Positions 4,123-32,015 of a DNA stretch of 36,723 bases are shown in pieces. Source of the stretch: Chloroflexota bacterium (GTDB lineage Bacteria > Chloroflexota > Anaerolineae > Promineifilales > Promineifilaceae). Where the stretch lies: NCBI GenBank assembly GCA_018004935.1, contig JAGNBF010000080.1:1-36723 (forward strand), read 5' to 3'. Positions within the stretch are counted from its first letter, which is position 1. The number at the start of each line of letters is the position of its first letter. Made by a program: the position numbers and the translations under genes. Under the pieces are notes generated by a model. That model ran no database searches, was not told where the DNA came from, and saw only the letters and a program-made list of their open reading frames with translations.

Positions 4123-4128
4123 AAACCC

Positions 4129-10100: not shown

Positions 10101-12195
10101 CGTCCTGGATCATGGGGTTCCCTTCCGTGTCCTCTCTCCTGTGGCCGATACAGATAGTGACAGCATCAGTGATGCGTTTGACAACTGTCTATTGATAGCC
10201 AACAATGATCAGGCCGACTTCGATGGAGATGGTCTGGGTGATGCCTGTGACATCAACGCCGATAATGACCCGTTGGTGGATGTTTTTGATGCCTTCCTTC
10301 AGAACACCACTGAATGGTTTGACCTGGATAATGATGGGACAGGTGACAACGCGGACAGTGACGCGGACAACGACACGATTGCCGATGAGAATGACAACTG
10401 CGCTGTGGAGGCGAATCCGGATCAGGCGGATTTCGACAATGATGGTTTTGGGAATGTTTGTGATGTGGATGATGACAACGATACGATTCCGGATAGTGCT
10501 GATGCCTTCCCGTTTGATCCCTCACGGTGGTCAGACGTGGATGGGGATGGGGTAGATGATGCGGTTGACAATTGTGCCTTTGTGGCTAACCCCGATCAGG
10601 CTGATTCTAACAACAATGGGATTGGTGATGTTTGTGATAACACCACACCCATCAACCATCTGCCCGTATTAGCCCCTATTGGCGATCAGAGCACCGCGGC
10701 CGCGTCCCTCCTCACTTTCACCGCCCTTGCCACCGATATAGACACCCCCACCCAAATCCTGAGCTTCTACCTGACGGATGCGCCACTGGGGGCCACCATC
10801 ACCACCGAAGGTCTCTTCACCTGGACACCCACCCTGGCCCAAGGCCCGGCCAGCTACCCCTTTGCCGTCTGCGTCACCGATGGGGTTGACCCGGTTTGTG
10901 AAACCATTACCATTACCGTGACCGTCAATACGGCCCCGGTCTTGAACCCCATCGGCAACCAGAGTGTGAATGAAGAGAGTAGTCTGGAGTTCGCGGCCGC
11001 GGCCGCGGATAACGACATACCAGCTAATACCTTAACCTTCGCCCTGGCTGGCGTCGTGCCCGTAGGAGCAACCATCACCTCAAACGGTGTTTTCACCTGG
11101 ACACCCGCCGAAGGGCAAGGTCCCGATAGCTACCCCATCACCGTTCAGGTCTGCGACAATGGCATACCTATGTTATGCAGTGAAGAAACAATAACCGTCA
11201 TGGTTTATGAGGTGAATATCGCCCCCGTGGCTAATCCTCAAACTGTCACCACAACAGAAAACACCCCCATCAACATTACCTTGAGTGGTAGTGATATGGA
11301 TATTCCAGCCAATACCCTGACCTTCTCCGTTATGAACGGCCCCACAAATGGTACGCTGAGTGGCACTGCTCCCTACCTGGTCTACACACCAGCCACAGGC
11401 TACATAGGGAACGATAGCTTTACCTTCAGAATCAACGATGGCACGGCCAATTCACCCATAGTAACAGTCAATCTCATTGTCACAACAGCCCTCACCTGCA
11501 ATGACTTACCCGTCACGATCATGGGAACCAATGCTTCCGAAATCATCCACGGCACCAACGGCAACGACGTAATCCTGGGGTTAGGAGGAAATGATCTCAT
11601 TGATGGGGGTAATGGTAACGATGTCATCTGTGGGGGCAATGGCAATGATTTACTAGACGGCGGTAATGGGAGCGATACGCTGATTGGTAGTTACGGCAAT
11701 GACTTCTTATACGGGGGTAATGGCAATGACACCCTGGACGGTGGTAGCGGCTCCGATCTACTGGGTGGGGGTAATGGGGACGACACCCTCATTGGTGGAG
11801 CAGGACTTGACATACTCGGTGGCGAGAATGGCAACGATACACTCGATGCCGGGGATGGTGACGATTTCCTTGATGGGGGCACCGGCAACGACATCATGAC
11901 AGCAGGCCCAGGGGCGGACAAAATGTATGGGGAGAATGGCAATGACACCCTGGACGGTGGTGATGGCAATGACCTGATCATCGGAGCCAATGGCAACGAC
12001 ATCCTGATTGGTGGCCTGGGGGCTGATAAACTGTATGGTGAAAATGGCAATGACCAGTTCCATGCCAGTCAGGCCAATAGTTGTGCCAGCGATGGCGCGG
12101 TTGACATTGTTGACGGCGGTAGTGGCACGGATACAGCCAAAGGTGTTCTGGCTGGCCCAGACACTGTTACAGGCGTAGAAGTTAAAAACTGCTAA
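4129..12195 (+). CDS. Giant secreted multidomain protein with C25-type peptidase, beta-helix and RTX repeats (2688 aa)
   Basis: An N-terminal signal peptide (about 1-32) ends near PLHAATF. Modules in order: CSLREA domain (about 33-75, ECTLRAAIQE) and parallel beta-helix to about 430; second CSLREA (about 517-555, GCSLRAAIQEAN) and beta-helix, ending in a choice-of-anchor-Q-like block (about 844-904). Next comes a PPC-like domain interrupted by 16 IAQLSD hexapeptides (1140-1235), then a gingipain-type C25 peptidase. Its likely catalytic residues are His1566 (NSHFDHF) and Cys1601 (SVGCHAGLN). Thrombospondin-type-3 Asp-rich repeats follow (about 2007-2170), then two putative Ig-like domains, a cadherin/tandem-95-like domain, and RTX GGxGxDxxx repeats (about 2467-2645). 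The TSP3 and RTX parts should bind calcium outside the cell. There is no obvious C-terminal sorting tag after the RTX block. The substrate is unknown, and peptidase activity is inferred from the two motifs. Confidence 0.95.
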   Translation: MSSKFRLLLTPFLALTLLTFLLLNPWSRPLHAATFTVNSTGDAVDVNAGNGVCETVTAGECTLRAAIQEVNALGGTDTINFSIPGAGVHTITPATGLPTISGPIVMDGTTQPGASCAAWPPTLLIELDGSGTGGASGLDLSAFAADGSTIRGLVINRFGNGINGAYTSNTTIECNFIGTDPTGTIALGNTSYGIELQQNSDNNVIGGPAETQRNLISGNGTYQMGFPNFSNNTTSPSGNLIQNNYIGTDVTGLNALGGGTFAAVYFGGANTNTIRDNLISGNTGYGIYISGDATRPSGNHIIQGNRMGVDNTGVGALGNGSPGVPFGIVIASSQNDLIGGTGPGEANIIANSFRVGVGIYTVSGADPQNVSVRGNSIYNNGEVGIDLFGVLGQNANDALDADSGPNNLQNYPVLTAATIAGNLTIDYSLDSAIANSAYPVTVDFYEADSAGSGEGQVYLGSDTLVGPGSDSVNLGNAAALGIIPGDPIVATATDANGNTSEFSSVVVAVGGSLNIVVDKIADGTDDTPGDGICSSGAVEGCSLRAAIQEANASPGVDTITLPAGTYTLSLAGVGENAAATGDLDISDDIILNGAGAGTTIIDANGLDRAFQVLAGVNLDLADVTVRGGSASPGGAVLVEGDLQATQVSLHNNEAPTTSSAGQGGAIYVSTGGVATITFSQFNNNSAYFGGGAVANSSTLAISIQDSTFTSNSSVLGGGAIYLNGLSATLSNNTFVSNSSDVGGAIHSNATAVFINNSTFVNNSATNSGAVDAREGLITINNSTFSDNTASSIGATLGDQPGIGGDLQVRNSIIASGNTNNCGGSVVDLGNNVSWPAGNNCPGTQANPLLDTLANNGGATETVALLLGSPAIGAGNNATCEATDQRGVARPQGANCDSGAYEFTSIAIDFNGLLAENGVSAINTLHSNYNTEGVNFDFYIPNYLAGDSPYLGSDQLRVETHPAGADTLVNFAVAVQSVSVNFVNIGIAPAVLTAYNELNNAADNLFAGIVVDQATSNANGVLAVSGSCIRSLQIEASGFDYIIDDLIFTPMVGPDSDSDGLVDQCDNSTRETSQTLQPGVPVEETAQSNQDAQWFRLDVTVPGSVISATLTSAFDYDLYLFAPRIDQEYGQLRDIGNLVTIAQLSDIAQLSDIAQLSDIAQLSDIARLYDLAQLADIAQLSDIAQLSDIAQLSDIAQLSDIAQLSDIAQLSDIAQLSDIAQLSDIAQLSDIAQLSDIGEAGGIETLAGISAHALPQTSEHIAVNVHELVGPWFLVVMPHDAAAIGQPFTLNSEALAPNEPLPIDTSVVPTFAPAPVSPTVETLILFNQSRLNQFYTGTDTVASADLINWLNVLAADSNVNGEVINLDSYPEIVAAYQNWDVNQDNPQSANYVARTIKALLYSLLPSYPDVKYIVIVGGDQVIPQRRIVDMTLVSNERTYYYYDNPMLAAAAKYRYYLTDDYYAASLPIAADGREIYIPQYGLGRLVESPGEIATMIDTFLSAPVLAPQNALVTGYDFLVDQANEVNTTLTGQGVPVDTLIDNAWTAQDFRDLAFDATAYDLISLNSHFDHFRFFPNDPTDVMATEFDETNNFDGRLIFSVGCHAGLNLFDNTTVLAFTGADFAQIFARHGATFIGNTGFGYGDGDLLAYSERLLLNFTENLGYNPVPGQNSTLPTTGEALMLAKQRYLNSLGNGGLTVYDEKVLAELTLYGLPMLKVNMPTQTSVVPGGDSVFTTTPPIAISGPSGANAWEQNLTFTYTPHTISDPVRNGTYYTVNGEESLLTTGNRPILPQTSVNFSSATEIARGVLMEGGSFTDNFYFDPVITQIITQEVSLSGEGVYLAQTLYPLSPVSINRFLTVDGVAQQRLVVMPAQFQSTDVTLASTGILRLYDNLDLVVYTASFTETDFISPNIWGVQTVENAGNFEFTVDLSDNDSGVHRVLVLYRDMTANSWTGVDLTYNPNSGLATGSVPVTGGTVEYFIQAVDQTGNVSLVLDHGVPFRVLSPVADTDSDSISDAFDNCLLIANNDQADFDGDGLGDACDINADNDPLVDVFDAFLQNTTEWFDLDNDGTGDNADSDADNDTIADENDNCAVEANPDQADFDNDGFGNVCDVDDDNDTIPDSADAFPFDPSRWSDVDGDGVDDAVDNCAFVANPDQADSNNNGIGDVCDNTTPINHLPVLAPIGDQSTAAASLLTFTALATDIDTPTQILSFYLTDAPLGATITTEGLFTWTPTLAQGPASYPFAVCVTDGVDPVCETITITVTVNTAPVLNPIGNQSVNEESSLEFAAAAADNDIPANTLTFALAGVVPVGATITSNGVFTWTPAEGQGPDSYPITVQVCDNGIPMLCSEETITVMVYEVNIAPVANPQTVTTTENTPINITLSGSDMDIPANTLTFSVMNGPTNGTLSGTAPYLVYTPATGYIGNDSFTFRINDGTANSPIVTVNLIVTTALTCNDLPVTIMGTNASEIIHGTNGNDVILGLGGNDLIDGGNGNDVICGGNGNDLLDGGNGSDTLIGSYGNDFLYGGNGNDTLDGGSGSDLLGGGNGDDTLIGGAGLDILGGENGNDTLDAGDGDDFLDGGTGNDIMTAGPGADKMYGENGNDTLDGGDGNDLIIGANGNDILIGGLGADKLYGENGNDQFHASQANSCASDGAVDIVDGGSGTDTAKGVLAGPDTVTGVEVKNC
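7546..7833 (+). repeat. 16 in-frame 18-bp repeats encoding IAQLSD
   Basis: Exactly 288 bp make sixteen hexapeptide units. Units 1-4 and 7-16 read IAQLSD; units 5 and 6 are IARLYD and LAQLAD. Third positions vary (ATT/ATC, GCC/GCT/GCG, CTG/CTA, AGC/AGT, GAT/GAC) while the peptide is constant, which points to selection on the protein sequence. The block lies between YDLYLFAPR and the WFLVVMPHD strand typical of the second half of a PPC domain. Confidence 0.97.
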
Positions 12196-12225
12196 GGGTT
12201 CGTAAAAATATAACTTCCCGGTTTA

Positions 12226-12257
12226 GACCTGACAGGTATTCGGAAACCTGTCAGGTC
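12226..12257. terminator. Perfect 12-bp hairpin downstream of the giant gene
   Basis: GACCTGACAGGT (12226-12237) and ACCTGTCAGGTC (12246-12257) flank an 8-nt loop. It begins 31 nt after the stop codon. No strong T-tract follows, so it may be a dispersed palindrome that stabilises or ends the transcript rather than a classical intrinsic terminator. Confidence 0.55.
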
Positions 12258-12308
12258 TTGACGGAACTTAATCTTTTACAAGCCCGGAGGGTTCGCTCAC
12301 AATTAGGC

Positions 12309-12355
12309 AACCGTTTGGTTCCCTCTCCCTGGGGAGAGAGTTAGGGGGAGGGTTG
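12309..12355 (-). repeat. C-rich dispersed hairpin element (partial)
   Basis: On the minus strand this reads CCCTCCCCCTAACTC followed by CTCCCCAGGGAGAGGGAACC, matching the C-rich half of the composite elements at 24313-24412 and 30880-30960. No long palindrome is attached. Confidence 0.65.
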
Positions 12356-12400
12356 TATCGTTACAACTTTCGGAGGGCTGAACGGTTACACAATGAGATC

Positions 12401-12430
12401 GGGTGGCACGGTCAGGAGACCGGCTACCAC
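12401..12430 (+). repeat. Dispersed hairpin with CGGTCAGGAGACCG core
   Basis: GGTGGC and CGGTC pair with GACCG and GCTACC around an AGGA loop. A second copy lies in opposite orientation at 34111-34139. Confidence 0.7.
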
Positions 12431-12473
12431 AAATCGCCAACTTAAAAACAAACGAATACGAATCGTTTTGGGG

Positions 12474-12512
12474 CGCATTACCTGGAAACGCCAGAAGTTT
12501 CCAGGTGATGCG
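12474..12512 (+). promoter_or_regulatory. Stable leader hairpin just upstream of the cyclase gene
   Basis: A 16-bp stem pairs 12474-12489 (CGCATTACCTGGAAAC) with 12497-12512 (GTTTCCAGGTGATGCG), with one T-G wobble and a 7-nt loop. It ends 23 nt before the ATG. A smaller inverted repeat, AAACGA-N7-TCGTTT, lies just upstream (about 12450-12468). An operator or translation-control role is possible but unproven. Confidence 0.5.
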
Positions 12513-12535
12513 TTTCACCGGATTGCCTGACAAAA

Positions 12536-15500
12536 ATGGAAACTGCAACTGATTACATCCCCATAGACCGCCGTCTGGCCCTGGCCGAAGGGCGCAATTT
12601 GCCGGAACGGACGCATGGCTCTGCCCTCTTTGCTGATATTTCTGGCTTTACCCCCCTCACCGAAATGTTGGCCCGGCAACTCGGCCCCCGACGGGGCGCA
12701 GAAGAGTTAACCCGGCAGTTAAATCGTGTGTATGATGCCCTGATCAATGATTTACACCGTTATGGGGGGAGTGTCATTGGCTTTAGTGGTGATGCCATAA
12801 CTTGCTGGTTAGATGGCGATGATGGGCAAAAGGGCGCGGCCGCGGCCTTCGCCATGCAGACAGCCATGCAACAATTTACCCATATCCGTTTCGGCACAGA
12901 AACAGTTTCCCTCGCCCTCAAAATAGCCGTCGTTGTTGGCCCTGTGCGCCGGTTTGTCATTGGCGACCCCAACTACCTCCTTATGGATGTCCTCGCCGGG
13001 GCCACCCTCAGCCGCCTGGCCGGGGCCGAACATCAGGCCAACAAAGGCGACATCATCCTGGATGAACAAATCGCTACCACCCTGGGCAACAACGTACACA
13101 TTCAAGAATGGCGCACCGATCATGAAAGTCATGAACAATATGCCGTAGTGACAGACCTTCAGGCAATCGTTCCTGAAAAACCCTGGCCGCCTCTCCCCCC
13201 CACCAGTCTACCCGACGATCAGGCCCGTGCTTGGTTATTGCCAACCGTTTACCGCCGTTTACAGGCGGCTAAGGGGGCATTCCTGGCCGAACTACGTTCA
13301 TCCTCAGCCCTGTTTATGCGTTTTGGGGGCATTGATTACGACGATGACGAAGAAGCACCCCAAAAACTAGACACCTTCATCAAACAAGTAGAGAAAATAT
13401 TAGCCCGTTACGAAGGCAGTTTGTTACAACTCACCATTGGCGATAAAGGGAGTTATCTCTACGCCTCAATGGGTGCCCCCATTGCCCACGAAGACAATGT
13501 TGACCGCAATTTACGTGTGGCCTGGGAATTACAAACCCTACCCGATCAATTACCTTTTATCGAACCAATGCAAATTGGTATCACCTATGGGCGCATGTAT
13601 GCAGGTGCCTACGGGGGGCAAGCCCGGCGCACCTATGGCGTGTTAGGAGATGCCGTGAATCTCTCCGCCCGCCTGATGCAAGCCGCCAAACCCGGTCAAA
13701 TCCTCGTCAGCGAATCAGCCTTCAGCAAAGCCAGTGACATCTTCCTATGGGAGACACTCCCAGCCATTCAGGTTAAGGGCAAAAGCGAACCCGTTGTACT
13801 CAACCGGTTGGTGGGCCTTAAAGCCAATCGCGCCCTGCAATCTCTGGATACTCTTTACCCCCACCCCCCCATTGGCCGAGAAGAAATTCTGACCCTCTTG
13901 AACAAAAAACTGGACGTGATGACGCAAGGCACTGGGCAAGTTATCCGGTTAGTCGGTGAAGCAGGGATGGGCAAAACTCATGTCATGGCCGAATTCAGTC
14001 GGATGGCTCGCACCAGAGGGTTTCGTCAGGCAATTGGCACCTGTCACAACCTCACCCGAAACAGCTTGTACCAACCCTGGCGCAATATTTTTTATGCCTT
14101 ACTCGACCTGGATGATGCCAACGAAATCAACGCCCTCAGCCAATTAACAACTTATATCGAGCAGGTACACCCACAGTGGCAATTACGTTTACCGTTGTTA
14201 GGTGATTTACTCGGCTTGCCGATCCCTGACAATCCCACCACCACCGCTTTTACCAGTGATCTACGCCAAAAAGCCCTTTTCTCCCTGTGCGTGGAAATGC
14301 TCCAAACCTGGACCCAGGATAAACCCCTCATTCTGGTTCTAGAAAATTCCCATTGGATGGATGAAGCCTCGGAAGCGTTGACTCAGGTTGTGGCACACCA
14401 GGTATTAGGAACCTCGTCGTTGATGATCCTGCTTTTGCACCGACCAGAGTTAGTAGGCAGTTCCTTACATTTGCCCGAATTAATCCGGCTCCCCTATTTC
14501 ACAGCCCTGGTATTGGATGAGATGCGTGACAACGACATGAACGCCTTCTTGACCCATCAATTAGGGCATCAGGCTTCCTCTCTACTTCTCGCCATCGTAC
14601 AAACCCTTGCGCAGGGGAATCCATTTTTTGCTCACGAATTGGTAAATGCTATGCGCCAGGGCAAGAAAATCGTGTTTGAGGATGCTGAGTGGGAAATTGC
14701 CCCCGAATTGGTGCGACGATTACAAAGTGCCGGTTTTGTGACCCAAGTAGAAGGGAAATGGCGGTTGAAACCCAATGTAGATCTGTCTACCGTAAAATTG
14801 GGTTTGCCCGATTCCATTCATGACCTGGTTCTCGCCCATTTAGATCGCCTGCCAGAGAGCCATAAATTGACCTTAAAGGTCAGCAGTATTTTGGGTTATT
14901 ACATTGATTTAGGGCTGGTTAGTGATGTACACCCAGAGAAGAAAGGTGTTGATCAGATTGAAGCGGAAGCGGCCTATATGGAGGCGGAAGAGGTTGTGCA
15001 CCAGGAAACCCCAGAGCGGAAGATTTATGCCTTTCGGCAACAAACAACGCAAGAGGTGGCTTATCAAACTCTGCTCCATGCCCAACGACAACAACTCCAT
15101 CGGGCGGTAGCCGAAACGTTGGTTGAACAACAACCAGAGGCAACGGTAGCCATTGCACATCATGCGTTTCTGGCCGAGTTATGGCCGGTAGCGCTTGCCT
15201 ATAACTTGTTGGCGGGTGAACGGGCCAAGAAGTTATATGCCAACCAGCAGGCGATTGCTTTTATGCAGAAGGCGTTACAAAGTGCCCAAACCTTGCCTGA
15301 TATAGAGACGGCTGAACCGTTAAAACAGATTCATTTGGCATTGGGCGAGTTATTGATAACGACGGGGCAATATGATACGGCGCATCAACATCTGGGCGTG
15401 GCGTTAGCATTGGCTCAGGCGCAACAAGATTGGGAGGCCGAGGCTACTTGTTACCGTTGGTATGGGCGTTCACACGAGCGGCGTGGGGAATACAGTCTGG

Positions 15501-16558
15501 CTTTAAGTTGGCTAAATAAGGGGTCGGCGATTCTGCATGGGCATGTTTCTAGCCAAGAGGCGGAAATATTGCTCATTGCGGGGTTGGTCAATTATCGTTT
15601 GGGGCATTTTGATGAGGCTTTGCAGTTATGTCAGAAGAGCCTGGTTGTGGGTGAGGTTTTAGATGATGCCGCCATTCGTGCTCGTACTTATAACTTGATG
15701 GGCATTGTGGAATTGCGCCAGGATAGCAAAGTGGCTATTGAGCGGTTTCAGCAATCGTTGGCGCAATATGAACAGTTACAGAATATCTATGGGCAAGCTA
15801 TTTCTCACAATCTCATTGCCAATGGACAATTTGCTCAGGGGCAGTGGATAAACGCGGAGGCTCATTATCGTCGCTCGTTGGATTTATTTACCCAGATTGG
15901 TGAGCTTTATAGTCAGGTGTTGGGGAACAATAATCTGGGGGGCATTGCCCTGAAGCAGGGGCGGTTGGATGCGGCTCTGGGGTATTATCAGCGGGCGATA
16001 CGGGTGTTGGAGCAAACGGGTGGATCGTTGTGGGTTTTGGGGGCGCTTCATCTGAATATGGGGCATGTTCATATTCGTATGCATGGGCTAGACAAGGCCG
16101 CGAGTGAACTAAAATTGGCGCAGGCTTATTTTGAGCAGGTGCAGTTGCGGGATTTGTTACCGGAGTTGTATGGTTTGTTGGCGGAGTTGGCGTGGTTGCA
16201 AGGGGATCTGGCCGCGGCCGCGAACCAGGGCCAACAAGCCGTAGACCTGGCGCGAGAACTTTCTATGCCCCGTGAAGAAGGGCATAACTTGCGAGTTCTG
16301 GGGGAAATTACCCGCGCCAGGGCACAGTTAGCGCAGGCAGAACAGCTTTTTCAGGAAAGTTATACGATACTCCACCAGGCGGGTGATGAGTATGAAAGTG
16401 GGCGCACTCAGCTTTCATTGGCCCAGTTGTATGGCGCTCAACAAAAATATGAACAAGCTGAAGCATTGTTGGCGTTATGTGAGCCTGTTTTTGAACGGCT
16501 GGACGCTCAGTTAGATCTGGCTTTGGTACAGTCAATCCGGCAATCGCTCATACCATAA
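12536..16558 (+). CDS. Soluble-adenylyl-cyclase-like protein: tandem class III cyclase domains, AAA ATPase, TPR repeats (1340 aa)
   Basis: Predicted to make cAMP (possibly cGMP) from the nucleoside triphosphate in the cytoplasm. The first cyclase domain (about 25-190) has metal-binding Asp34 (FADISGF) and Asp86 (FSGDAIT) but lacks the Asn-x3-Arg pair. The second (about 250-425) has Asn375 and Arg379 (GDAVNLSAR), but the first metal Asp position is not Asp (LFMRFGG). The two halves therefore look like one composite active site, as in ADCY10-type soluble cyclases. Next come an ATPase with Walker A GEAGMGKT (about 475) and an LVLENSHWMDE Walker B-like motif, and TPR repeats from about 880 to the end. 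No convincing Shine-Dalgarno precedes the ATG. The CNB-domain gene starts 24 bp downstream, so the two are probably co-transcribed. Confidence 0.93.
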   Translation: METATDYIPIDRRLALAEGRNLPERTHGSALFADISGFTPLTEMLARQLGPRRGAEELTRQLNRVYDALINDLHRYGGSVIGFSGDAITCWLDGDDGQKGAAAAFAMQTAMQQFTHIRFGTETVSLALKIAVVVGPVRRFVIGDPNYLLMDVLAGATLSRLAGAEHQANKGDIILDEQIATTLGNNVHIQEWRTDHESHEQYAVVTDLQAIVPEKPWPPLPPTSLPDDQARAWLLPTVYRRLQAAKGAFLAELRSSSALFMRFGGIDYDDDEEAPQKLDTFIKQVEKILARYEGSLLQLTIGDKGSYLYASMGAPIAHEDNVDRNLRVAWELQTLPDQLPFIEPMQIGITYGRMYAGAYGGQARRTYGVLGDAVNLSARLMQAAKPGQILVSESAFSKASDIFLWETLPAIQVKGKSEPVVLNRLVGLKANRALQSLDTLYPHPPIGREEILTLLNKKLDVMTQGTGQVIRLVGEAGMGKTHVMAEFSRMARTRGFRQAIGTCHNLTRNSLYQPWRNIFYALLDLDDANEINALSQLTTYIEQVHPQWQLRLPLLGDLLGLPIPDNPTTTAFTSDLRQKALFSLCVEMLQTWTQDKPLILVLENSHWMDEASEALTQVVAHQVLGTSSLMILLLHRPELVGSSLHLPELIRLPYFTALVLDEMRDNDMNAFLTHQLGHQASSLLLAIVQTLAQGNPFFAHELVNAMRQGKKIVFEDAEWEIAPELVRRLQSAGFVTQVEGKWRLKPNVDLSTVKLGLPDSIHDLVLAHLDRLPESHKLTLKVSSILGYYIDLGLVSDVHPEKKGVDQIEAEAAYMEAEEVVHQETPERKIYAFRQQTTQEVAYQTLLHAQRQQLHRAVAETLVEQQPEATVAIAHHAFLAELWPVALAYNLLAGERAKKLYANQQAIAFMQKALQSAQTLPDIETAEPLKQIHLALGELLITTGQYDTAHQHLGVALALAQAQQDWEAEATCYRWYGRSHERRGEYSLALSWLNKGSAILHGHVSSQEAEILLIAGLVNYRLGHFDEALQLCQKSLVVGEVLDDAAIRARTYNLMGIVELRQDSKVAIERFQQSLAQYEQLQNIYGQAISHNLIANGQFAQGQWINAEAHYRRSLDLFTQIGELYSQVLGNNNLGGIALKQGRLDAALGYYQRAIRVLEQTGGSLWVLGALHLNMGHVHIRMHGLDKAASELKLAQAYFEQVQLRDLLPELYGLLAELAWLQGDLAAAANQGQQAVDLARELSMPREEGHNLRVLGEITRARAQLAQAEQLFQESYTILHQAGDEYESGRTQLSLAQLYGAQQKYEQAEALLALCEPVFERLDAQLDLALVQSIRQSLIP

Positions 16559-16582
16559 CCCTGCTCAAACGAAGAGAGAGAT

Positions 16583-17068
16583 ATGAGTTTTCAATCATTC
16601 TTTAATTACCCTTCACATTCTACGAGTAATCAGCCCGAGGATTTGCTCTTTTTGCCCTTTTGGAACGAAACCCAGTGGGGCAAACTGCTTGGCTACACGG
16701 CCAATCTCCGCTTTCGTCTTGGTGATACCATCATCAAATTAGGTGATACGGATAGCGCTATTTACATCATTACGGAGGGGCAGGTGGAAATCCTGGTACC
16801 GTACCAGGGAGGGCAACAGGTACGGCGCACACAACTCCGGGAGGCGGGTTCAGTTATTGGCGAACAGGCGTTTATTGACGGTAAACCCCGTTCTGCCACG
16901 GTGCGTGCAGTCGCTGATGGCTCAATGGTACGCCTTAATCGTAATGCGTTTGAAGTATTTGCCGCCCGCGAACCTGAATTAGCCCGTGATGTTTTATTCG
17001 ATTTAGCACGTCTTCTCTCGATTAAACTCCGTCAAGCTAATCAGTTTATCTCCAATTGGGTTAAATGA
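16583..17068 (+). CDS. Stand-alone cyclic-nucleotide-binding (CNB/CAP-fold) protein, 161 aa
   Basis: A single CNB domain of about 130 residues with no DNA-binding helix-turn-helix. The phosphate-binding cassette is intact: VIGEQAFIDGKPRSATV, with Glu94 for the ribose and Arg103 for the cyclic phosphate. A GAGAGAG Shine-Dalgarno-like stretch lies just before the ATG. It follows the cyclase by 24 bp and precedes the redox membrane protein by 137 bp, so a cAMP sensor acting on a neighbouring protein is the simplest reading. Without an output domain it must act through a partner. Confidence 0.92.
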   Translation: MSFQSFFNYPSHSTSNQPEDLLFLPFWNETQWGKLLGYTANLRFRLGDTIIKLGDTDSAIYIITEGQVEILVPYQGGQQVRRTQLREAGSVIGEQAFIDGKPRSATVRAVADGSMVRLNRNAFEVFAAREPELARDVLFDLARLLSIKLRQANQFISNWVK

Positions 17069-17072
17069 GATT

Positions 17073-17190
17073 GGTATATTGGTATATTGGTATATTGGTG
17101 TATTAGTGTATTGGTTGATGATAAATTGGTGCATTGGCGTACTGAATAATAACCAATACACCCATACACTAATCCACTAATCCACCAATC
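17073..17190. repeat. Imperfect ATTGGTGTATTGG repeat block with inverted halves
   Basis: The left half is tandem TATATTGG/TGTATTGG-type octamers (about 17073-17115). The right half is the inverted form, AACCAATACACC with ACTAATCC units (about 17150-17190), and a poly-C run follows. A second copy of this element type lies at 29876-29942. The block fills most of the gap before the redox gene, so it may set the leader structure of that transcript. Confidence 0.8.
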
Positions 17191-17205
17191 CCCCCCCCCT
17201 TGCCT

Positions 17206-19845
17206 ATGGAATCTTTGCCTGTTTTTCCTAACTATTTGCAATTGCGTGAACGGTCGCGGGTGTCGCCTAAGGTGTGGCAGGTGACACGAACCGGGAGTGT
17301 GGTGGTGGCTTTGGCGCTGGTGGTGACGTTGTGGGTGGAACCAGCGTTGGGGTTGAAGTTGTTTTGGGGGGTGCTGGTTCCGGTGTTGCCGGTGTTATTT
17401 CTGGTAGCCCCTGGTCTATGGCGAAATATATGCCCGCTCGCGGCCGCAAACCAGACGCCACGCCTCTTCAAATTTACCCGCGCCCTCACCCTACCAGCCT
17501 GGATGCAGGAGTATAGCTACGTCATCGGTATCAGCCTGTTTTTTGTGCTGGCCTCCAGCCGCAAATGGTTGTTTAACCAGAGTGGCCCCGCTACCGCCCT
17601 ACTGATCATGGGCCTGATCGCGGCCGCGTTCTTAGGGGGCATCTTCTTCAAAGGCAAAAGTGGCTGGTGTAGTAGCATCTGCCCTTTACTCCCCGTGCAA
17701 CGGATGTACAACCAGACCCCATTCATCCTCATCGGCAACGCACATTGTGCGCCGTGTGTTGGTTGCACCAAAAACTGTTACGACTTTAACCCCGGTGTGG
17801 CAAACCTGGCCGATATGTACGACAACGATCGGTACTACACAGGCTACCGCCAATTCTTCATCGGCGCCTTCCCCGGCTTTATCCTGGCCTTTTTTCTCAC
17901 ACCCAACCCACCAGAAATTTCGATTTTTGCGTTGTACCTGGCCTTTTTCAGCTATATGGCCGTCAGTTTGGGGTCGTTTTTGACCCTACGAACCTTTGTG
18001 AAGGTAACGGATACAAAACTGATTACGCTGTACGGCGCGGCCGCGCTCAACCTCTTCTACTGGTTTGTCATCCCGGTCTGGCTCAACAACGTATTTGGTT
18101 CGGCCCCACTGATGGTTATCTGGCCGGTGCGGGTATTCCTGCTGGGCATCACCCTGGCCTGGATTGTGCAAACCTACCGCAAAGAACCTAAGTTTGTGGC
18201 CCAGTTAATGCCCCATCAAGAGACAAAAGTATCGGGCGCGGCCGCACGTGCCCTTAAACAGGCCATCAGCCAGGAAGGCCGTCATGAGGTCACTTACCTG
18301 CCCGACGAGCTACGCCTCATGGTCGAAGAAGGGCGCACCCTTCTCGAAACCGCCGAACAAAACGATTTACGTATCGAGCCGGGTTGTCGCATGGGGGTTT
18401 GTGGTGCCGATCCCATCGTCATTGTGCAAGGCATGGATAACCTCTCCCATCAGCGCGATGATGAACACTCTACCCTGGATAGATTGGGTTTAGCCAATGG
18501 CAATGTACGGCTGGCCTGCATGGCCCGCGTCAATGGGCCTGTCTCTTTTTCTCTGGATTTATCTCTGGTCAAACAAGTCAATGCCGAATTAACGACCCAA
18601 CAGTTTGATGAAAACATCCGGCAGGTGGTTATTGTGGGCAATGGTATTGCCGGTGTCACCGCCGCCGACCATATTCGTCGCCGCCACCCGGCCTGTGAGA
18701 TTCACCTCATCGGCAAGGAAAGCCATCATCTGTATAACCGAATGGCTATCACCCGTCTCATTTATGGACGTTCCGCCATGAATGGGCTGTATCTACAACC
18801 CGATCAATGGTACGAAGAGAAAAAGATTACTCCCTGGCTCAATACGATGGTCTCTAAGGTGGATAGGAGTACCCGGCAGGTAAAACTGGCAACCGGGGAA
18901 ACCCTGCCCTACGACCGGCTCATTCTGGCGACCGGGAGCCGTAGTTTTGTGCCTACACTTCCTGGTTTTGGCCTGCCGGGAACCTATGTCTTGCGCGAAG
19001 CGGAAGATGCGATGCAGATTCGGGCGTTTGTGCAAAAACACCAGACACAGCACGCCGTGGTGGCTGGAGGTGGCCTGTTAGGGTTAGAAGCCGCTTATGC
19101 CCTGTACAAATTAGGGTTGAAAGTGACTGTGTTAGAACGAGGCCCGTGGCTATTGCGGCGACAGTTGGATGAACGCGGGGCCGACTTTTTGCACCAATAT
19201 TTGTTGGGGTTAGGGTTGGATATTGTGTTTGAAGCCGAGTGCGCGGCCGCGAACGGCACCGACCGCCTGGAACAAATCACGCTTAAAGATGGCCGTACCC
19301 TCAATAGTGATTTGTTACTCATTTGTGTGGGTATCAGTCCTAACATAGAACTGGCCCAAACGCTAGGCCTCACAACCAAACGCGGCATTGTGGTAGATGA
19401 TGGGATGCACACCGATGATCCCGACATTTTTGCCGTGGGTGATGCCTGCGAACATCAAGGGCAAGTGCCGGGGTTATGGCCCGTGGCTGTAGAGCAAGCC
19501 AAAATCGCCGCCATCAATGCCGTCGGCGGAAATGAATGTTACACAGGCACAATTCCCGTCACTCATCTGAAAGTGGTAGGAGTAGAATTGACATCCATTG
19601 GACAAATTGAAGCAAATTCCCCAGAGGATGTGACGATTGTGCAAGAAGATGTAGAATTGCACCATTATCGCAAACTCGTCATTGTCAAAGGTAAGGCAGT
19701 AGGGGCGATTCTTCTCGGTTATCCTTTGGATGCCTCAGTTGTCACCACAATTATTAAGGATGGGGTTGACATCGCACCTTATCTCGAAACACTGCAAGCC
19801 GGTCAGTGGGATCAATTACATCATCTGGGCATATCTTCTCAATAA
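17206..19845 (+). CDS. Three-module membrane redox protein: NapH/polyferredoxin-like, 2Fe-2S domain, FAD/NAD oxidoreductase (879 aa)
   Basis: The N-terminal part (about 1-330) is a multi-pass membrane region with polyferredoxin-like cysteines: NICPL near 74, WCSSICP near 152, and CAPCVGCTKNC near 180, a CxxCxxCxxxC 4Fe-4S motif. Next is a plant-type 2Fe-2S domain (about 345-455) with Cys394, Cys399 and Cys438, but Asp402 where the third Cys of CxxxxCxxC is expected (CRMGVCGAD). The C-terminal half is a NirB/NADH-rubredoxin-reductase-like flavoprotein, with FAD GNGIAG near 475, NAD GGGLLG near 617 and AVGDACEH near 742. NAD(P)H electrons could pass through FAD and 2Fe-2S to the membrane clusters. 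The acceptor is unknown. I chose the ATG at 17206; a TTG two codons upstream is also possible. No Shine-Dalgarno is seen. Confidence 0.9.
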   Translation: MESLPVFPNYLQLRERSRVSPKVWQVTRTGSVVVALALVVTLWVEPALGLKLFWGVLVPVLPVLFLVAPGLWRNICPLAAANQTPRLFKFTRALTLPAWMQEYSYVIGISLFFVLASSRKWLFNQSGPATALLIMGLIAAAFLGGIFFKGKSGWCSSICPLLPVQRMYNQTPFILIGNAHCAPCVGCTKNCYDFNPGVANLADMYDNDRYYTGYRQFFIGAFPGFILAFFLTPNPPEISIFALYLAFFSYMAVSLGSFLTLRTFVKVTDTKLITLYGAAALNLFYWFVIPVWLNNVFGSAPLMVIWPVRVFLLGITLAWIVQTYRKEPKFVAQLMPHQETKVSGAAARALKQAISQEGRHEVTYLPDELRLMVEEGRTLLETAEQNDLRIEPGCRMGVCGADPIVIVQGMDNLSHQRDDEHSTLDRLGLANGNVRLACMARVNGPVSFSLDLSLVKQVNAELTTQQFDENIRQVVIVGNGIAGVTAADHIRRRHPACEIHLIGKESHHLYNRMAITRLIYGRSAMNGLYLQPDQWYEEKKITPWLNTMVSKVDRSTRQVKLATGETLPYDRLILATGSRSFVPTLPGFGLPGTYVLREAEDAMQIRAFVQKHQTQHAVVAGGGLLGLEAAYALYKLGLKVTVLERGPWLLRRQLDERGADFLHQYLLGLGLDIVFEAECAAANGTDRLEQITLKDGRTLNSDLLLICVGISPNIELAQTLGLTTKRGIVVDDGMHTDDPDIFAVGDACEHQGQVPGLWPVAVEQAKIAAINAVGGNECYTGTIPVTHLKVVGVELTSIGQIEANSPEDVTIVQEDVELHHYRKLVIVKGKAVGAILLGYPLDASVVTTIIKDGVDIAPYLETLQAGQWDQLHHLGISSQ

Positions 19846-19968
19846 AGTGTGGTGACGTTGGTTGAACTTGTCGCAACCAACCCCCTTCGTCAGATTCAGG
19901 CTACGTTTCCCCCGAAATATTGAGAAGTCACGTCTGGGCGGACAATAGAAGTAACAGTAGATAGTGGG

Positions 19969-20004
19969 CAATTGTCTTGACAATTGTCTTTTTGTCGTTA
20001 TAAA
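19969..20004 (+). promoter_or_regulatory. Sigma-70-like promoter with overlapping palindrome before the HD-domain gene
   Basis: A perfect -35 TTGACA (19977-19982), a 16-nt spacer and -10 TATAAA (19999-20004) lie 75 nt upstream of the ATG at 20079. The -35 box sits inside the inverted repeat CAATTGTC-TT-GACAATTG (19969-19986), a plausible repressor site. This suggests the HD gene starts a new transcript separate from the cyclase block. Confidence 0.6.
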
Positions 20005-20078
20005 GTCATCATTGTTTATTGTCCTTTCTCCACATTCCCAACCATCCCCCTTCGGCCATTTACAAGGTCAAAAAACGT

Positions 20079-20684
20079 ATGTCTCAACCTGATTATGCCC
20101 AAGCGATTGCCCATGCGTTGTATCTGTTAGAAACGGCTTTAGCCCCACATCTTACCTATCATAGTTATTGGCATACCCAAGGGGATGTAATGCCCGGGGC
20201 GGTGCGGCTGGCGCAGATGAGTGGGATTAATGATGGTGAGATAAGTTTGTTGGAGGTCGCGGCCGCATACCATGACATCGGTTTTCTCTTCACAATTGAA
20301 GAACATGAAATGGTAGGGGCCAGTCTGGCGGCGCAGGTTTTGCCAGACTATGGGTTTAGCTGGCCTGAGATTGAGCGCATCATCAACGTGATTCTCGCCA
20401 CCCGTTTACCCCAATCCCCCGGCGACTTGCTGGAACAATGTATTGCCGATGCCGATCTGGACGCTTTGGGGCGTGAAGATTTTCTGGAACGTAGTGAGGC
20501 TTTGCGTCTGGAGACAGCCGCCCTGGGCCAGGAATTTGATCTGATTACCTGGGACAAGCGGCAATTACCATTTTTAGAAGGGCACAGCTATTTCACTGCG
20601 GCCGCACGTACCTTACGTGAGGCCAATAAACAAAAGCACATCTCTCTGCTTAAAGCCAGAATTTCTGAGGGCATCCCTTCTTAA
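20079..20684 (+). CDS. HD-domain phosphohydrolase, 201 aa
   Basis: A small all-helical HD-superfamily protein. The metal-binding set is visible: His28/His32 (YHSYWHT), His65-Asp66 (AYHDIG), His76 (EEHEM) and Asp124/Asp126 (ADADLD). HD proteins of this size hydrolyse nucleotides or phosphoesters; the substrate cannot be told from sequence. I chose the ATG at 20079 because the HD fold begins there. The frame is open 20 codons further upstream, but that extension begins with a non-ATG codon and looks unconserved. Lying between the redox and CNB genes, it could act on a nucleotide related to the cyclase pathway, but this is speculation. Confidence 0.85.
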   Translation: MSQPDYAQAIAHALYLLETALAPHLTYHSYWHTQGDVMPGAVRLAQMSGINDGEISLLEVAAAYHDIGFLFTIEEHEMVGASLAAQVLPDYGFSWPEIERIINVILATRLPQSPGDLLEQCIADADLDALGREDFLERSEALRLETAALGQEFDLITWDKRQLPFLEGHSYFTAAARTLREANKQKHISLLKARISEGIPS

Positions 20685-20719
20685 TCACCTTACCTTCTCC
20701 CTCACAGGTAATGGAATCC

Positions 20720-20801
20720 CCCCCACCCCTAACCCCGCCTCTGGGGGTAGGGTTTGGCTCATTTAACCATCGCTTCCAGAGAGACAGCGCCGGGTTTTTA
20801 A
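20720..20801. repeat. C-rich hairpin followed by a shared ATTTAACC-CGCTTCCAGA motif
   Basis: 20720-20757 carries CCCCCACCCCTAACCCCGCC pairing with GGGGGTAGGG, as in the other C-rich elements. 20760-20795 (ATTTAACCATCGCTTCCAGA, then GCCGGGTTTTT) closely resembles the loop and right arm of the nested hairpin at 28524-28568. No gene is present. Confidence 0.65.
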
Positions 20802-20811
20802 AGGATTTAGC

Positions 20812-21246
20812 ATGATCACCATCGAAAAAGTCGCCTTTCTGCGCACCGTACCCCTATTTGCCAGCATTCCTGATTATGTACTGGCCTCAGTGGCCCAAAT
20901 TGCCGAGGAAGTAGAATTACCTGCCGGGGAAATGTTTATCCGTGAAGGGGATGTGGAAGATTGTATGTACCTGGTTGTTGCGGGGCAGGTACGAGTGCAC
21001 CGGCAAGAGAAAACAATCATCACCCTGGGGGCTGGCAAAAGCGTGGGCGAACTGGCCGTATTGGATCCAGAACCGCGCGCGGCCGCGGTTTCCACCCTCG
21101 AACCGACCCACTTATTCCGTATCGCCAAACCCCCATTCGATGAAGTCATGGCCGACCGCCCCGAAATTGCCCAGGGCGTCATCCGCGCTTTATGTGAACG
21201 CGTGCGCGAACAAGGCCGACTGATGACCCAAAGAAAGGGCGAATAA
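20812..21246 (+). CDS. Stand-alone cyclic-nucleotide-binding (CNB/CAP-fold) protein, 144 aa
   Basis: A second single-domain CNB protein with no helix-turn-helix. The phosphate-binding cassette reads SVGELAVLDPEPRAAAV, with Glu80 and Arg89 as the expected ligand contacts. An AGGA ribosome-binding site lies 7 nt before the ATG. It sits 125 bp upstream of the NTT/HEAT transporter gene. In some free-living bacteria NTT-like transporters, HEAT repeats and a CNB domain occur in one polypeptide, so this gene may be the separately encoded sensor for the next protein. Confidence 0.9.
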   Translation: MITIEKVAFLRTVPLFASIPDYVLASVAQIAEEVELPAGEMFIREGDVEDCMYLVVAGQVRVHRQEKTIITLGAGKSVGELAVLDPEPRAAAVSTLEPTHLFRIAKPPFDEVMADRPEIAQGVIRALCERVREQGRLMTQRKGE

Positions 21247-21265
21247 GACGCCCTTCCCCCTTCCC

Positions 21266-21370
21266 CATTCACCATTCCCCACTCACCATTCCCCACTCCC
21301 CATTCACCATTCACCATTCACCATTCACCATTCACCATTCACCATTCACCATTCCCCATTCCCCATTGCC
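21266..21370. repeat. Array of fifteen 7-bp units abutting a start codon
   Basis: Fifteen consecutive heptamers (consensus CATTCAC, variants CATTCCC, CACTCAC, CACTCCC and final CATTGCC) run from 21266 to 21370. Seven identical CATTCAC units lie at 21301-21349. The array ends one base before the ATG at 21372. It leaves no room for a Shine-Dalgarno site and could vary in length by slippage. Confidence 0.95.
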
Positions 21371-21371
21371 T

Positions 21372-24137
21372 ATGACCACCTTCACCCCACTCCTTCCCGA
21401 TATTGGTCAGCCTGTGCGCACCCGTTTGGTGCTATTAATTGGGCAAGCGTTTGCCCTGGGACTGACTCTGGCCTTCCTGATTGTCATTGGTAATGCACTT
21501 TTTTTGTCTGACTACGGCGCGGCCGCGTTGCCCTACACCTACATAACCGTCGCCATTACCGGAACACTCCTCGCCTATGGTTTTGCCGCCTTACAAAGCC
21601 ACTATACCATCTCCCAACTCACCATCACCACCATCACCGGACTGGTAATCTTTTATCTACTCTGCTGGCTGGGATTAACTGCCATCCCTGTGCGCGGCAT
21701 CTCCTTCGCTCTGGTCGTCTCCTTTAGCCTATTGTTACAACTGGGATTTGTTTTCCTGGGGGGGCAAGCCGGACGATTATTCGATGTGCGCCAGATTCGG
21801 CAACTTTTCTCCTTTATTGTGGCCGGGTTTGTGATGGGATTTATTGTGGGAGCGTTAATTGTGCCCCCCCTGGTAATGTGGTTGGGCAGTACCGCCAACG
21901 CCTCCATTGGGCTGGTAGGCACATCATTACTCTGGCTCATTCTGTTAATCATCACCAGCAACCGTTATCAGCGAGAACTGAGTCAAATACAGGATCGCGG
22001 CCGCGCTCCATCCCGGCAATCTCTACCCCAGCTCCTAAAAAATCGCTTTGTCCTTTTCATTTTCCTCTACCAGATGCTGGCTATCACCGTCAACCAACTC
22101 ACCGACTTCATCATGATGACTCAGGTGGGAGCACGGTTCACAACCAGCGAAAGCACGGCTCAATTTTTCAGCCGCTTTACCGCCATCCTCAATGGCACCG
22201 ATCTCCTCTTCACCACCCTTATCGCCGGTTTTTTTCTCAGCCGGTTTGGACTAAATGCCGGTCTGTTAGCGAATCCCATCGTAACCACTCTCATTCTCCT
22301 GGCGATGGGCCTCAGCTACATTATTCTGGGGCCATCCAGTACCCTCTTCTTTCTCCTGGCCGTAGGCATCCGCATTACACTTATCACCCTCACCGATGGG
22401 ACCACCCGAACCTCTACCAACACCACCTATCAGGCCTTGTCCGCCCAAGATCGTAGCCCCGCCCAGGCAGGTGTCGAGGGAATCGGTGGCCCGGTGGCCC
22501 TGGGCATTACCGGGGTATTATTGCTCATTTTCAACAGAATAGAGGGGCTTAACAGTGCCCACCTCATCTTCCTGACTCTGGCATTGGCCGGGGGCTGGGC
22601 AATCATGGGGTTCATGGTCTATCGCCAATACGCCAGCACCCTGCTCAATACCTTGCGTCGCCGTGCCCTGGGCGAGGTTGAGCTATCTCTGGCCGATAGC
22701 TCCAGCATGGCGGTTGTCGAGCGGCTGGTGAAAAGTGAACGCCTCTCTGATATCCAGTTAGCTCTGGACGTGCTTGACCAATCGGATCGTCCGGCATTGG
22801 AACGGTGCCTGATGCGTCTGTTGAACCATACCGAAGAAGTGGTTCAGATAGAAGCATTGCGTCGCCTGGAAATCCGCCCCATCCCGATTGCCCGGTCGCT
22901 TATTGAATCACGTTGGCAAACACCTACCACATCAGCCGAGGTAAAAGGAGTTGCTCTGCGGGTTTTGTGTGCCTATGAGGGGGGAGAAGCCGTCGAGTGG
23001 GTTGCGCCTCTTATGGATGCCCCCACGCCGGAGATTCGTTTTAATGCCCTGGTGGGTTTACTGCGTTATGGAGGTATTGCCGGAGCGCTGTTAGCCGGGG
23101 AGCGGCTGATGACGTTGACTCATTCACCGCTGATGCAGGAACGTATGTTTGCCGCTCAGGTGATGGAAGCGGTGGGACAGATTAATTTTTATCAGCCGCT
23201 TTTGGCGTTGCTAGAAGATAAAGAACCCCAGGTGCGGCAAGCGGCTTTACTCGCGGCCGCGCACTGTCCTCATATCCATTTATTGCCCCTGGTAACTCAG
23301 GGTTTGAACGAACCAAACACCCGGTCTGCGGCCGCGACCGCCCTTCTCGCTTATGGTACGGCTGTATTACCCCTGGTAGAACAGGCTTTGCAGGGAACAA
23401 CACCCCTGGGTTCACGGCAACTCATCCGCCTGGTGCGCGTCTGTGGACAGATAAAAGGGGAATCCACGATCAACCTGCTTAAACAATTCCTCAACCATCC
23501 TGATCGGGAAATACGAGGCCAGATTCTCATCGCCTTGAACCAATGCGCTTATCACGCCACCCCTGAAGATATACCCCTGGTGCTAAAAACAATGCACCTC
23601 GAAGCCACCCAAGCCGCCTATGCCCTCACCGTGCAACAAGAAATGGGGAATGAGGAAGCCTTTGCCCCCTTGCAACGTGCGCTCGATGAAGAATGGCGCC
23701 ACGCCCAACAGCACCTGTTTTATCTGCTGGCCTGCCTGTATGATAGTCGGGCACTGCTCCGTGCCGGGGAGCAACTGGGCCGTGGGAGTGAGGGGGAAAA
23801 GGCGTTGGCGCTGGAATTGTTGGATGTCACCTTAAATTCAGAGCAGAAAGGCATTCTCTTTCCCCTGGTGCGGCCGCAACTCAGCCTCCATCAGCGGCAA
23901 CAACAACTCACCCAGCGGTTCCCCATCTCCTCACAAAACCGCGAAACCCGGTTACATGAATTGATAATGGGCGCAGAAACTAACCCGGTATTACCCTGGA
24001 CACGTGCCTGTGCCGTGTACGCGGCCGCGTTAGCCACCCTCCCCTCTCTCATCCCCCCCATTCAACACGCCCAAACATCCCCCGATACCACCCTTCAGGA
24101 AACCACCGCCTGGGCCTTAACCCAACTCACCGCCTGA
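21372..24137 (+). CDS. NTT/MFS-like membrane transporter fused to HEAT repeats, 921 aa
   Basis: The first 430 or so residues are highly hydrophobic with about 11-12 membrane segments, in the style of ATP/ADP-translocase (NTT) or related MFS proteins. The remainder is a soluble helical-repeat region with HEAT/PBS-lyase-like units (for example REIRGQILIALNQC, EPQVRQAALLAAAHC, PEIRFNALVGLLRYGG). The transported solute is unknown; nucleotide transport is a possibility from family resemblance only. I chose the ATG at 21372; a TTG two codons earlier is inside the repeat array. There is no Shine-Dalgarno. It follows the CNB gene, so cyclic-nucleotide control through the HEAT region is a reasonable hypothesis. 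Six GCGGCCGC octamers occur, three in the HEAT part. Confidence 0.85.
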   Translation: MTTFTPLLPDIGQPVRTRLVLLIGQAFALGLTLAFLIVIGNALFLSDYGAAALPYTYITVAITGTLLAYGFAALQSHYTISQLTITTITGLVIFYLLCWLGLTAIPVRGISFALVVSFSLLLQLGFVFLGGQAGRLFDVRQIRQLFSFIVAGFVMGFIVGALIVPPLVMWLGSTANASIGLVGTSLLWLILLIITSNRYQRELSQIQDRGRAPSRQSLPQLLKNRFVLFIFLYQMLAITVNQLTDFIMMTQVGARFTTSESTAQFFSRFTAILNGTDLLFTTLIAGFFLSRFGLNAGLLANPIVTTLILLAMGLSYIILGPSSTLFFLLAVGIRITLITLTDGTTRTSTNTTYQALSAQDRSPAQAGVEGIGGPVALGITGVLLLIFNRIEGLNSAHLIFLTLALAGGWAIMGFMVYRQYASTLLNTLRRRALGEVELSLADSSSMAVVERLVKSERLSDIQLALDVLDQSDRPALERCLMRLLNHTEEVVQIEALRRLEIRPIPIARSLIESRWQTPTTSAEVKGVALRVLCAYEGGEAVEWVAPLMDAPTPEIRFNALVGLLRYGGIAGALLAGERLMTLTHSPLMQERMFAAQVMEAVGQINFYQPLLALLEDKEPQVRQAALLAAAHCPHIHLLPLVTQGLNEPNTRSAAATALLAYGTAVLPLVEQALQGTTPLGSRQLIRLVRVCGQIKGESTINLLKQFLNHPDREIRGQILIALNQCAYHATPEDIPLVLKTMHLEATQAAYALTVQQEMGNEEAFAPLQRALDEEWRHAQQHLFYLLACLYDSRALLRAGEQLGRGSEGEKALALELLDVTLNSEQKGILFPLVRPQLSLHQRQQQLTQRFPISSQNRETRLHELIMGAETNPVLPWTRACAVYAAALATLPSLIPPIQHAQTSPDTTLQETTAWALTQLTA

Positions 24138-24430: not shown

Positions 24431-24478
24431 TTGTTTTTATATTATCGTTATGCTAAAATGTGTAACCAATCAGTTACG
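24431..24478 (+). promoter_or_regulatory. Candidate promoter and operator before the AHSA1 remnant
   Basis: TTGTTT (24431-24436), a 17-nt spacer and TAAAAT (24454-24459) resemble a sigma-70 promoter. GTAAC-N6-GTTAC (24462-24477) just downstream is a symmetric candidate operator. AHSA1-type genes are often controlled by ArsR-like repressors, but no such gene is in the window. Confidence 0.4.
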
Positions 24479-24492
24479 CATCATGAGATGAG

Positions 24493-24739
24493 ATGTTTTC
24501 CAGGCCATTGCGGATCCGGGAATTTGAAGCCCCCCCGTGAGCTTGTTTTTAAAGCCATCACTACCCCAGAATTGTATACTCAATGGCTTGGCCCACGAAA
24601 ATACATCATAACGCTAGAGATAGTTGAACCCCGCAAAGGCGGCTCCTGGCGCTACACCCATGGCGATCCTGATGGTAACGTCTATACCTTTAACTGCGTC
24701 TTCCATGAAGTCACACTCCCCGAGAAAATAATTCAAACC
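24493..24739 (+). pseudogene. Broken AHSA1/SRPBCC-family gene (frameshift plus 3' truncation)
   Basis: From the ATG at 24493 the frame reads [14 protein letters not shown], the expected start of an AHSA1-like SRPBCC domain. It is then lost at a run of seven Cs (24530-24536). After a one-base shift it continues as [20 protein letters not shown] and later [18 protein letters not shown] and [13 protein letters not shown]. Removing one C would restore one frame. Homology stops at about 24739, where dispersed hairpin DNA begins, so roughly the last half of a normal 140-160-aa protein is missing. The intact VOC gene downstream is a common partner of AHSA1 genes. A long in-frame reading that joins this remnant to the VOC gene is an artefact. 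Confidence 0.75.
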
Positions 24740-24763
24740 CTGACAACATTGCACTTCTGCGAA

Positions 24764-24870
24764 AATGTAGGGCGATTTGGTAAATCGCCTGGTGGACAAT
24801 TTACCAAATTGTCCTACAGATTTTCATTCCACCTGGTGCGCTGTAGGCCCATGGGGAACTTCTGCGAAAA
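24764..24870 (+). repeat. Tandem-hairpin dispersed element that truncates the AHSA1 gene
   Basis: Two adjacent small hairpins, GGCGATTT-ggt-AAATCGCC (24771-24789) and GGACAATTT-acc-AAATTGTCC (24794-24814), are followed by TACAGATTTTCATTCC and a CCTGGTG...CCCATGGGGA tail. The tail recurs at 25938-25990, and related pieces are at 25697-25735 and 28615-28650. Confidence 0.75.
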
Positions 24871-24925: not shown

Positions 24926-24949
24926 AGAACCCAAAACAAGGAGCGTATA

Positions 24950-32009: not shown

Positions 32010-32015
32010 ATGAAT

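Follow-up and report, generated by a model that had tools for sequence, protein, structure and literature searches.

The window analysed here, a stretch of 36,723 nucleotides, is an entire contig of an 8-Mb genome. Six collinear genes were located on its + strand between positions 12536 and 24137, in the order CYC, CNB1, RDX, HD, CNB2 and TRP that had been claimed in the first-pass annotation. CYC (12536–16558, 1340 residues) combines a twin-domain class III cyclase of the soluble adenylyl cyclase (sAC) type with AAA_16 and TPR regions (Pfam Guanylate_cyc, AAA_16 and TPR; human sAC in the PDB). The start of CNB1 (16583–17068, 161 residues) follows at the reported spacing of 24 bp; the gene encodes a free cyclic-nucleotide-binding (CNB) protein (Pfam cNMP_binding; PKG/PKA-like CNB in the PDB). 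RDX (17206–19845) consists of a membrane Fe–S part of about eight helices, a 2Fe–2S domain and a ferredoxin-reductase-type FAD/NAD(P)H part (Pfam Fer2, Pyr_redox_2 and a weak Fer4_5). HD (20079–20684) is a small HD-domain hydrolase, as judged from Pfam HD, its conserved residues and its pairing with CYC. CNB2 (20812–21246, 144 residues) is a second free CNB protein (Pfam cNMP_binding, PKG/PKA-like) and is homologous to a transporter-fused CNB. TRP (21372–24137, 921 residues) joins an NTT-type transporter, recognized from its fold and its 12-helix N-terminal part, to HEAT repeats (Pfam HEAT). A giant secreted-looking protein of 2695 residues (4108–12195, + strand; assigned from Pfam and from homologues beside CYC in other loci) is encoded directly upstream of CYC. 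The domain identities given previously were thus borne out by Pfam for the cyclase, both free CNB proteins, the redox fusion, the HD hydrolase and the HEAT protein, and by fold for the NTT part. Neither CNB protein carries an output domain of its own and each adjoins a membrane-protein gene, also as proposed.

The better starts, read from the sequence, are ATG 17206 for RDX (first-listed start TTG 17200) and ATG 21372 for TRP (first-listed start TTG 21366). HD possibly starts at ATG 20079, with TTG 20019 as an alternative. The gaps between the later genes are 125–233 bp, so that co-transcription is no more than a possibility, and this counts against treating the six genes as one functional cluster. 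Low-complexity spacer repeats (ttggtatattggtata and attcaccattcacc) are present at 17070–17200 between CNB1 and RDX and at 21250–21365 between CNB2 and TRP. A promoter at 19977 had been read as a sign of at least two transcripts; this was not upheld, 11 promoter-like sites being found versus 10.9 in shuffled sequences. The 19977 site falls in a hairpin with a T run behind it and could as well be a terminator as a promoter. Beyond the six genes, an open reading frame at 24431–25396 (+) encodes a fusion of AHSA1-like and 3-demethylubiquinone methyltransferase-like (PhnB-type) parts, and the genes at 26003–28270 and 32010–33851 (+) encode a UvrA-like ABC ATPase and a GTP-type PEP carboxykinase, which are apparently unrelated.

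Residues 1–440 of CYC were matched to human sAC over both catalytic halves by comparison with the PDB (E = 3e-23). In the alignment to sAC the metal-binding residues D34 and D86 lie in the first half and K304, N375 and R379 in the second, i.e. the metal Asp pair in one domain and the Asn/Arg in the other, as in sAC-like class III cyclases. These residues are retained in the aligned CYC relatives that reach them, except for one outlier at the Asn position. From these residues CYC is probably an active cyclase. It would be a cytosolic pseudo-heterodimeric enzyme controlled by its AAA/TPR (STAND-like) sensory part, and would make a cyclic nucleotide, probably cAMP. Human sAC (ADCY10) and the bacterial cyclase-AAA-TPR proteins likewise have a tandem pair of class III domains that together build a single pseudo-heterodimeric site, followed by AAA and TPR regions, and this type of cyclase is already known. 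CYC differs from sAC in its HD protein partner and in a Gly, found in all CYC orthologues, at the position of sAC T405; although the Lys is kept, this Gly means that its ATP preference is not secure.

HD matches PF01966 above the Pfam cut-off. Residues Y27, H28, H32, H65, D66, H76, E77, D124 and D126 are invariant among the aligned relatives and include the H...HD...D metal ligands of the HD hydrolases (H28/H32, H65, D66 and D124/D126). Its closest relative of known structure (PDB entry 2pq7) is an HD hydrolase that is itself uncharacterised. Within the taxonomic order of the window's genome, HD was found directly behind CYC in G020, G009, G005, G027, G031 and G007, with gaps of −4 to ~230 bases. 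HD and CYC share a single reading frame in G073, G074 and G075 (HD C-terminal) and in G016 (HD N-terminal), which brings the cases of adjacency or fusion besides the window to ten. Across this order most CYC copies, and many of the HD copies, are solitary or stand with other genes, a point against the proposed cluster; the pairing is frequent, not obligatory. Its simplest reading is a synthase–hydrolase pair, in which HD would most likely hydrolyse the CYC product or a related nucleotide. The one line of evidence that points to this presumed substrate is the genomic pairing with a cyclase.

RDX was modelled as a single chain with about eight membrane helices (mean pLDDT 87.7). Seven invariant Cys residues (C76, C155, C159, C181, C184, C187 and C191) lie in the membrane part or flank it. 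In the 2Fe–2S domain C394, C399, D402 and C438 are invariant; three Cys and one Asp are also the ligand set of Escherichia coli SdhB. The FAD/NAD(P)H part is folded like toluene dioxygenase reductase (TMt 0.90 to PDB entry 4emi). The homologue alignment contains no invariant His, which argues against haem b. The helical N-terminal part matched Fer4_5 (PF12801) at 19.6 bits, and at 20.4 bits in the L118 homologue, relative to a cut-off of 22, and a sequence-profile search of the PDB gave no relative for the membrane part. NapH, NosR and CcoG resemble RDX in this weak Fer4_5 match and in a C-x3-C-P motif near the membrane helices; RDX is unlike them in remaining below the Pfam cut-off and in its C-terminal ferredoxin and FAD reductase parts. 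The ferredoxin reductases that serve dioxygenases and P450s, such as toluene dioxygenase reductase and putidaredoxin reductase, share the FAD/NAD(P)H fold feeding a 2Fe–2S domain. RDX differs from these in carrying the 2Fe–2S and membrane Fe–S parts in the same chain and in having a CNB or FHA partner.

Homologues of RDX were collected with an alignment-based scan using one genome per species (n = 80); a scan of the genome contigs with a single RDX sequence as the query had given no match. The regulatory neighbour was CNB1 upstream in 38 homologues, an N-terminal FHA domain in 28, both in five and neither in nine, so that a CNB1 orthologue lies just upstream of RDX in 43 of the 80. The FHA call was confirmed with Pfam on one example. 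The CNB1 and RDX genes mostly lie no more than 60 bases apart or overlap. Four of the nine homologues without either partner are at contig edges and three are short membrane-only proteins; only the remaining two of the nine (L095 and L136) lack both partners despite having room for them, and these count against the explanation favoured below. The lack of a CNB gene beside RDX in G022 was discarded as evidence, since the contig ends ~220 bases upstream of RDX. G001 contains only a truncated, internally deleted RDX copy (L031, 15259–16110, −) near the same kind of CopC-like and small secreted genes as the intact G022 copy (L030).

The CNB1–RDX pair recurs in records from Chloroflexota, Pseudomonadota, Actinomycetota and Verrucomicrobiota. 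RDX was found in isolates of Andreprevotia, Ramlibacter, Pleionea, Aliikangiella, Streptomyces, Nocardioides, Nocardia, Mycobacterium and Geodermatophilus. It is rare in the class of the window (one of 249 sampled genomes), which weighs against the proposed cluster; this rarity, together with the presence in isolates of these genera, suggests that RDX has spread horizontally. A search of plasmids for RDX returned only distant partial 4Fe–4S proteins. FHA-RDX is confined to Actinomycetota. The actinobacterial RDX proteins with an N-terminal FHA domain in place of a CNB partner are encoded in L107, L110, L111, L118, L124, L126 and others, at about 9400–12700; a further FHA-containing protein is encoded nearby in 18 loci and a Ser/Thr kinase in six. 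The CNB1 and RDX distances are correlated (Mantel r = 0.75 for 34 pairs, with none of 2000 permutations as high), and the CNB label requires three changes on the RDX tree versus 10.7 in shuffles; both results partly reflect the kinship of the genomes and therefore indicate that the two genes have long been inherited together, which is no evidence of binding.

Members of the CNB1 family have an N-terminal FF(D/N)Y motif in common. The two CNB proteins match PF00027 at 3e-16 and 8e-18, above the cut-off, and both have the Glu and Arg of the phosphate-binding cassette (E94 and R103 in CNB1, E80 and R89 in CNB2). Among 41 CNB1 sequences the Glu is conserved in 100% and the Arg in 97%, which fits what ligand binding in trans would require. 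We propose that CNB1 is a regulatory subunit of RDX and that ligand binding would either activate or inhibit electron flow from NAD(P)H through FAD, the [2Fe–2S] cluster and the membrane Fe–S centres to a putative acceptor. The closest solved relatives of CNB1 and CNB2 in the PDB are the regulatory CNB domains of PKG and PKA, and a separate regulator acting in trans is found in PKA as well. CNB1 and CNB2 differ from these in having one CNB domain per protein and a membrane redox protein or transporter as the presumed partner.

The CAP/CNB fold serves other ligands in the FNR and CprK proteins, and the two CNB proteins could accordingly respond to a different ligand in the manner of these CAP-type proteins, or could be constitutive structural subunits. 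That FHA replaces CNB in the actinobacterial RDX proteins would agree with this, as the regulatory slot need not be nucleotide-specific. Against it stand the almost invariant Gly-Glu and Arg of the cassette in the 41 CNB1 orthologues, the best PDB matches to PKG and PKA, and a class III cyclase encoded in 40 of the 41 CNB–RDX genomes, a count that is weak on its own because cyclases are common in such genomes. We regard another ligand or a purely structural role as improbable and retain a cyclic nucleotide as the likely ligand.

The membrane half of TRP resembles the ATP/ADP translocators in fold: it was superposed on AtNTT1 with Z = 38.0 and an r.m.s.d. of 2.6 over 419 residues, and on Chlamydia NTT1 with Z = 33.9. 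The best non-NTT structure gave Z = 27.7, ten Z units lower than the first of these. TRP residues 1–443 gave no Pfam match at E values up to 5, PF03219 (TLC) included, and TRP is therefore filed as an NTT protein by fold and architecture. No near-invariant charged residue was found in the membrane half in alignment A4, so that nucleotides are only a candidate substrate. Within the same taxonomic order, the CNB gene is free and upstream of TRP in five loci (G030, G073, G074, G075 and the window) and the CNB domain is fused to the C-terminus of TRP in at least 13 others; every complete TRP relative examined has one or the other. CNB2 and the fused domain are alike from the first residues (MLTIEKV...). 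CNB2 would be a regulatory subunit of the NTT-HEAT transporter acting in trans through a putative contact between the two proteins.

This third module is already known. An NTT transporter with HEAT repeats and an adjacent or fused cNBD was described by Major et al. (2017; PMC5381601), who also suggested that transport is tuned by cAMP from adenylate cyclase. The window shares the transporter, the HEAT repeats and the adjoining cNBD with that system. It differs in the gene order, the cNBD gene following the transporter there and preceding it in the window, in the cyclase–hydrolase pair within the same cluster and in the assignment to NTT by fold match only. In G030, where a stop codon breaks the TRP reading frame, the free CNB–TRP pair is followed by genes for a response-regulator/FAD oxidoreductase and for a CNB-histidine-kinase-ATPase protein (L063, 3345–4784 and 4867–6528, −). 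An HD gene that G019 and G033 have in the vicinity of a TRP-like gene was left out of the count, as it lies beyond a metal-transport-like gene set. Elsewhere in the genome of the window, L078 (9048–12320, −) encodes a 1090-residue membrane protein with two C-terminal CNB domains.

The first-pass annotation had offered the conservation of the gene order as a check on its proposal. When the neighbourhoods were compared, both CNB–membrane protein pairs and the cyclase–HD pair proved to be conserved; the six genes do not form one conserved set, the exact order being found in no relative examined, and three modules are joined in the window. These may therefore have become neighbours by chance through genome rearrangement, each CNB–membrane protein pair working as proposed but with the nucleotide supplied by any of the several cyclases of the cell and with no special link to CYC and HD. 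The genome of the window has eight matches to the N-terminal part of CYC and ~16 CNB domains elsewhere, and in 34 of the 41 CNB–RDX loci no cyclase is within reach. In G075 (C978) CNB1–RDX occurs without a cyclase on the 20 kb that were read, which also speaks against the cluster.

Cyclase genes are nevertheless enriched near CNB–RDX, which is contrary to chance. One lies within 6 kb of the pair in seven of the 41 loci (L119, L143, L162, L161, L142, L104 and L134), where 0.48 loci were expected from the per-genome cyclase density (P ~3e-7, or 9e-5 when the three Kangiella-like loci are counted as one, for five lineages in all). The nearby cyclases differ in architecture, being of the CHASE2, response-regulator, FHA or cyclase-AAA-TPR kind. 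A gene that shares one base with CNB1 in L084 is truncated at the contig end; the half that is left, the C-terminal one, is AAA/TPR-like. In the window, moreover, CNB1–RDX is placed between CYC and HD, a pair that is adjacent elsewhere, and CYC recurs near CNB–TRP in a related genus (G074:C206 and G073:C211) and near a SulP–CNB transporter in a third genus. In G074 a row of genes for a giant protein, another secreted-looking protein and a CYC–HD fusion runs divergently from a TRP–CNB fusion. G073 has a row of this kind too, which ends in CYC and is divergent from a free CNB–TRP pair. In G027 the giant protein, CYC and HD are followed by a sulfate-permease-type transporter (a SulP-STAS-CNB fusion), and this CYC is the only full-length match, with 58% identity in the N-terminal part. 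The SulP transporter, with its STAS and C-terminal CNB domains, lies directly behind CYC–HD (L210, 617–3055, −). A cyclase thus recurs beside CNB-gated membrane proteins, with the output swapped between genomes. Taking both sides together, we find a chance assembly of three modules doubtful and keep to a joint signalling cluster.

The giant protein contains a β-helix, 15 six-residue IAQLSD repeats, a conserved region of 750 residues and RTX repeats. A homologue is encoded immediately upstream of CYC in six other loci, and in a seventh one is divergent from CYC; the giant protein is likely to be part of a wider conserved CYC neighbourhood. Several homologues carry FTNPSA repeats at contig ends. 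The His and Cys motifs of the 750-residue region resemble those of the C25 (gingipain-type) peptidases, but it is not assigned to them, as it had no Pfam, NCBIfam or PDB match.

A cyclase beside CNB and membrane proteins also recalls the logic of Pycsar, in which a class III cyclase acts with CNB-containing effectors. The locus might in that case be an anti-phage system, with a cyclase triggered by infection and cell damage exerted through the CNB-linked membrane proteins. CYC matches the PycC models weakly and in part (40 bits to a 374-residue model), and both CNB proteins match the CNB part of the PycTIR effector models. The CNB effector fused to a TIR domain or a transmembrane toxin that would mark a Pycsar system was not found in the window: there is no TIR domain, and CNB1 and CNB2 are single-domain proteins. 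The outputs are instead of a metabolic kind, namely a complete NAD(P)H reductase chain together with an NTT transporter, their catalytic parts being conserved, and Pycsar systems include neither an HD partner nor a TPR sensor. We consider an anti-phage role very improbable.

The explanation that we favour, and hold to be somewhat better than even, is a signalling cluster based on a cyclic nucleotide, with RDX and TRP as its membrane outputs. The initial statement that no described system with this set of genes was known holds for the set as a whole, to which no match was found; it does not hold for the NTT-HEAT protein with a cNBD (Major et al., 2017). Pfam and NCBIfam contain no dedicated family for CNB-RDX, FHA-RDX or CYC-HD. 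No earlier description of these three was found in the open-access literature, and absence there is not proof of novelty. For the redox module considered by itself, the chances appear evenly balanced that CNB-RDX represents an undescribed but widespread family of membrane electron-transfer enzymes gated by cyclic nucleotides. In this family a free PKA-like regulatory subunit would control an NAD(P)H-driven membrane Fe–S protein, and in Actinomycetota the FHA domain would occupy the same regulatory slot and provide control by Ser/Thr phosphorylation.

Bacterial cAMP is known mostly for acting on transcription via CRP, and in addition on some gated channels, a GNAT acetyltransferase and Pycsar effectors. 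To our knowledge, the phosphodiesterase part is missing for most bacterial cyclase systems. The pairing of CYC with HD, with its fusions, makes a hydrolase family that is so far uncharacterised a candidate for a cNMP phosphodiesterase. The exchange of CNB for FHA on one redox core provides a clean, testable prediction for the function of the regulatory slot. If the proposed mechanism is correct, a conserved free CNB subunit beside an NAD(P)H-driven membrane Fe–S enzyme would place respiration-like electron flow under direct second-messenger control.
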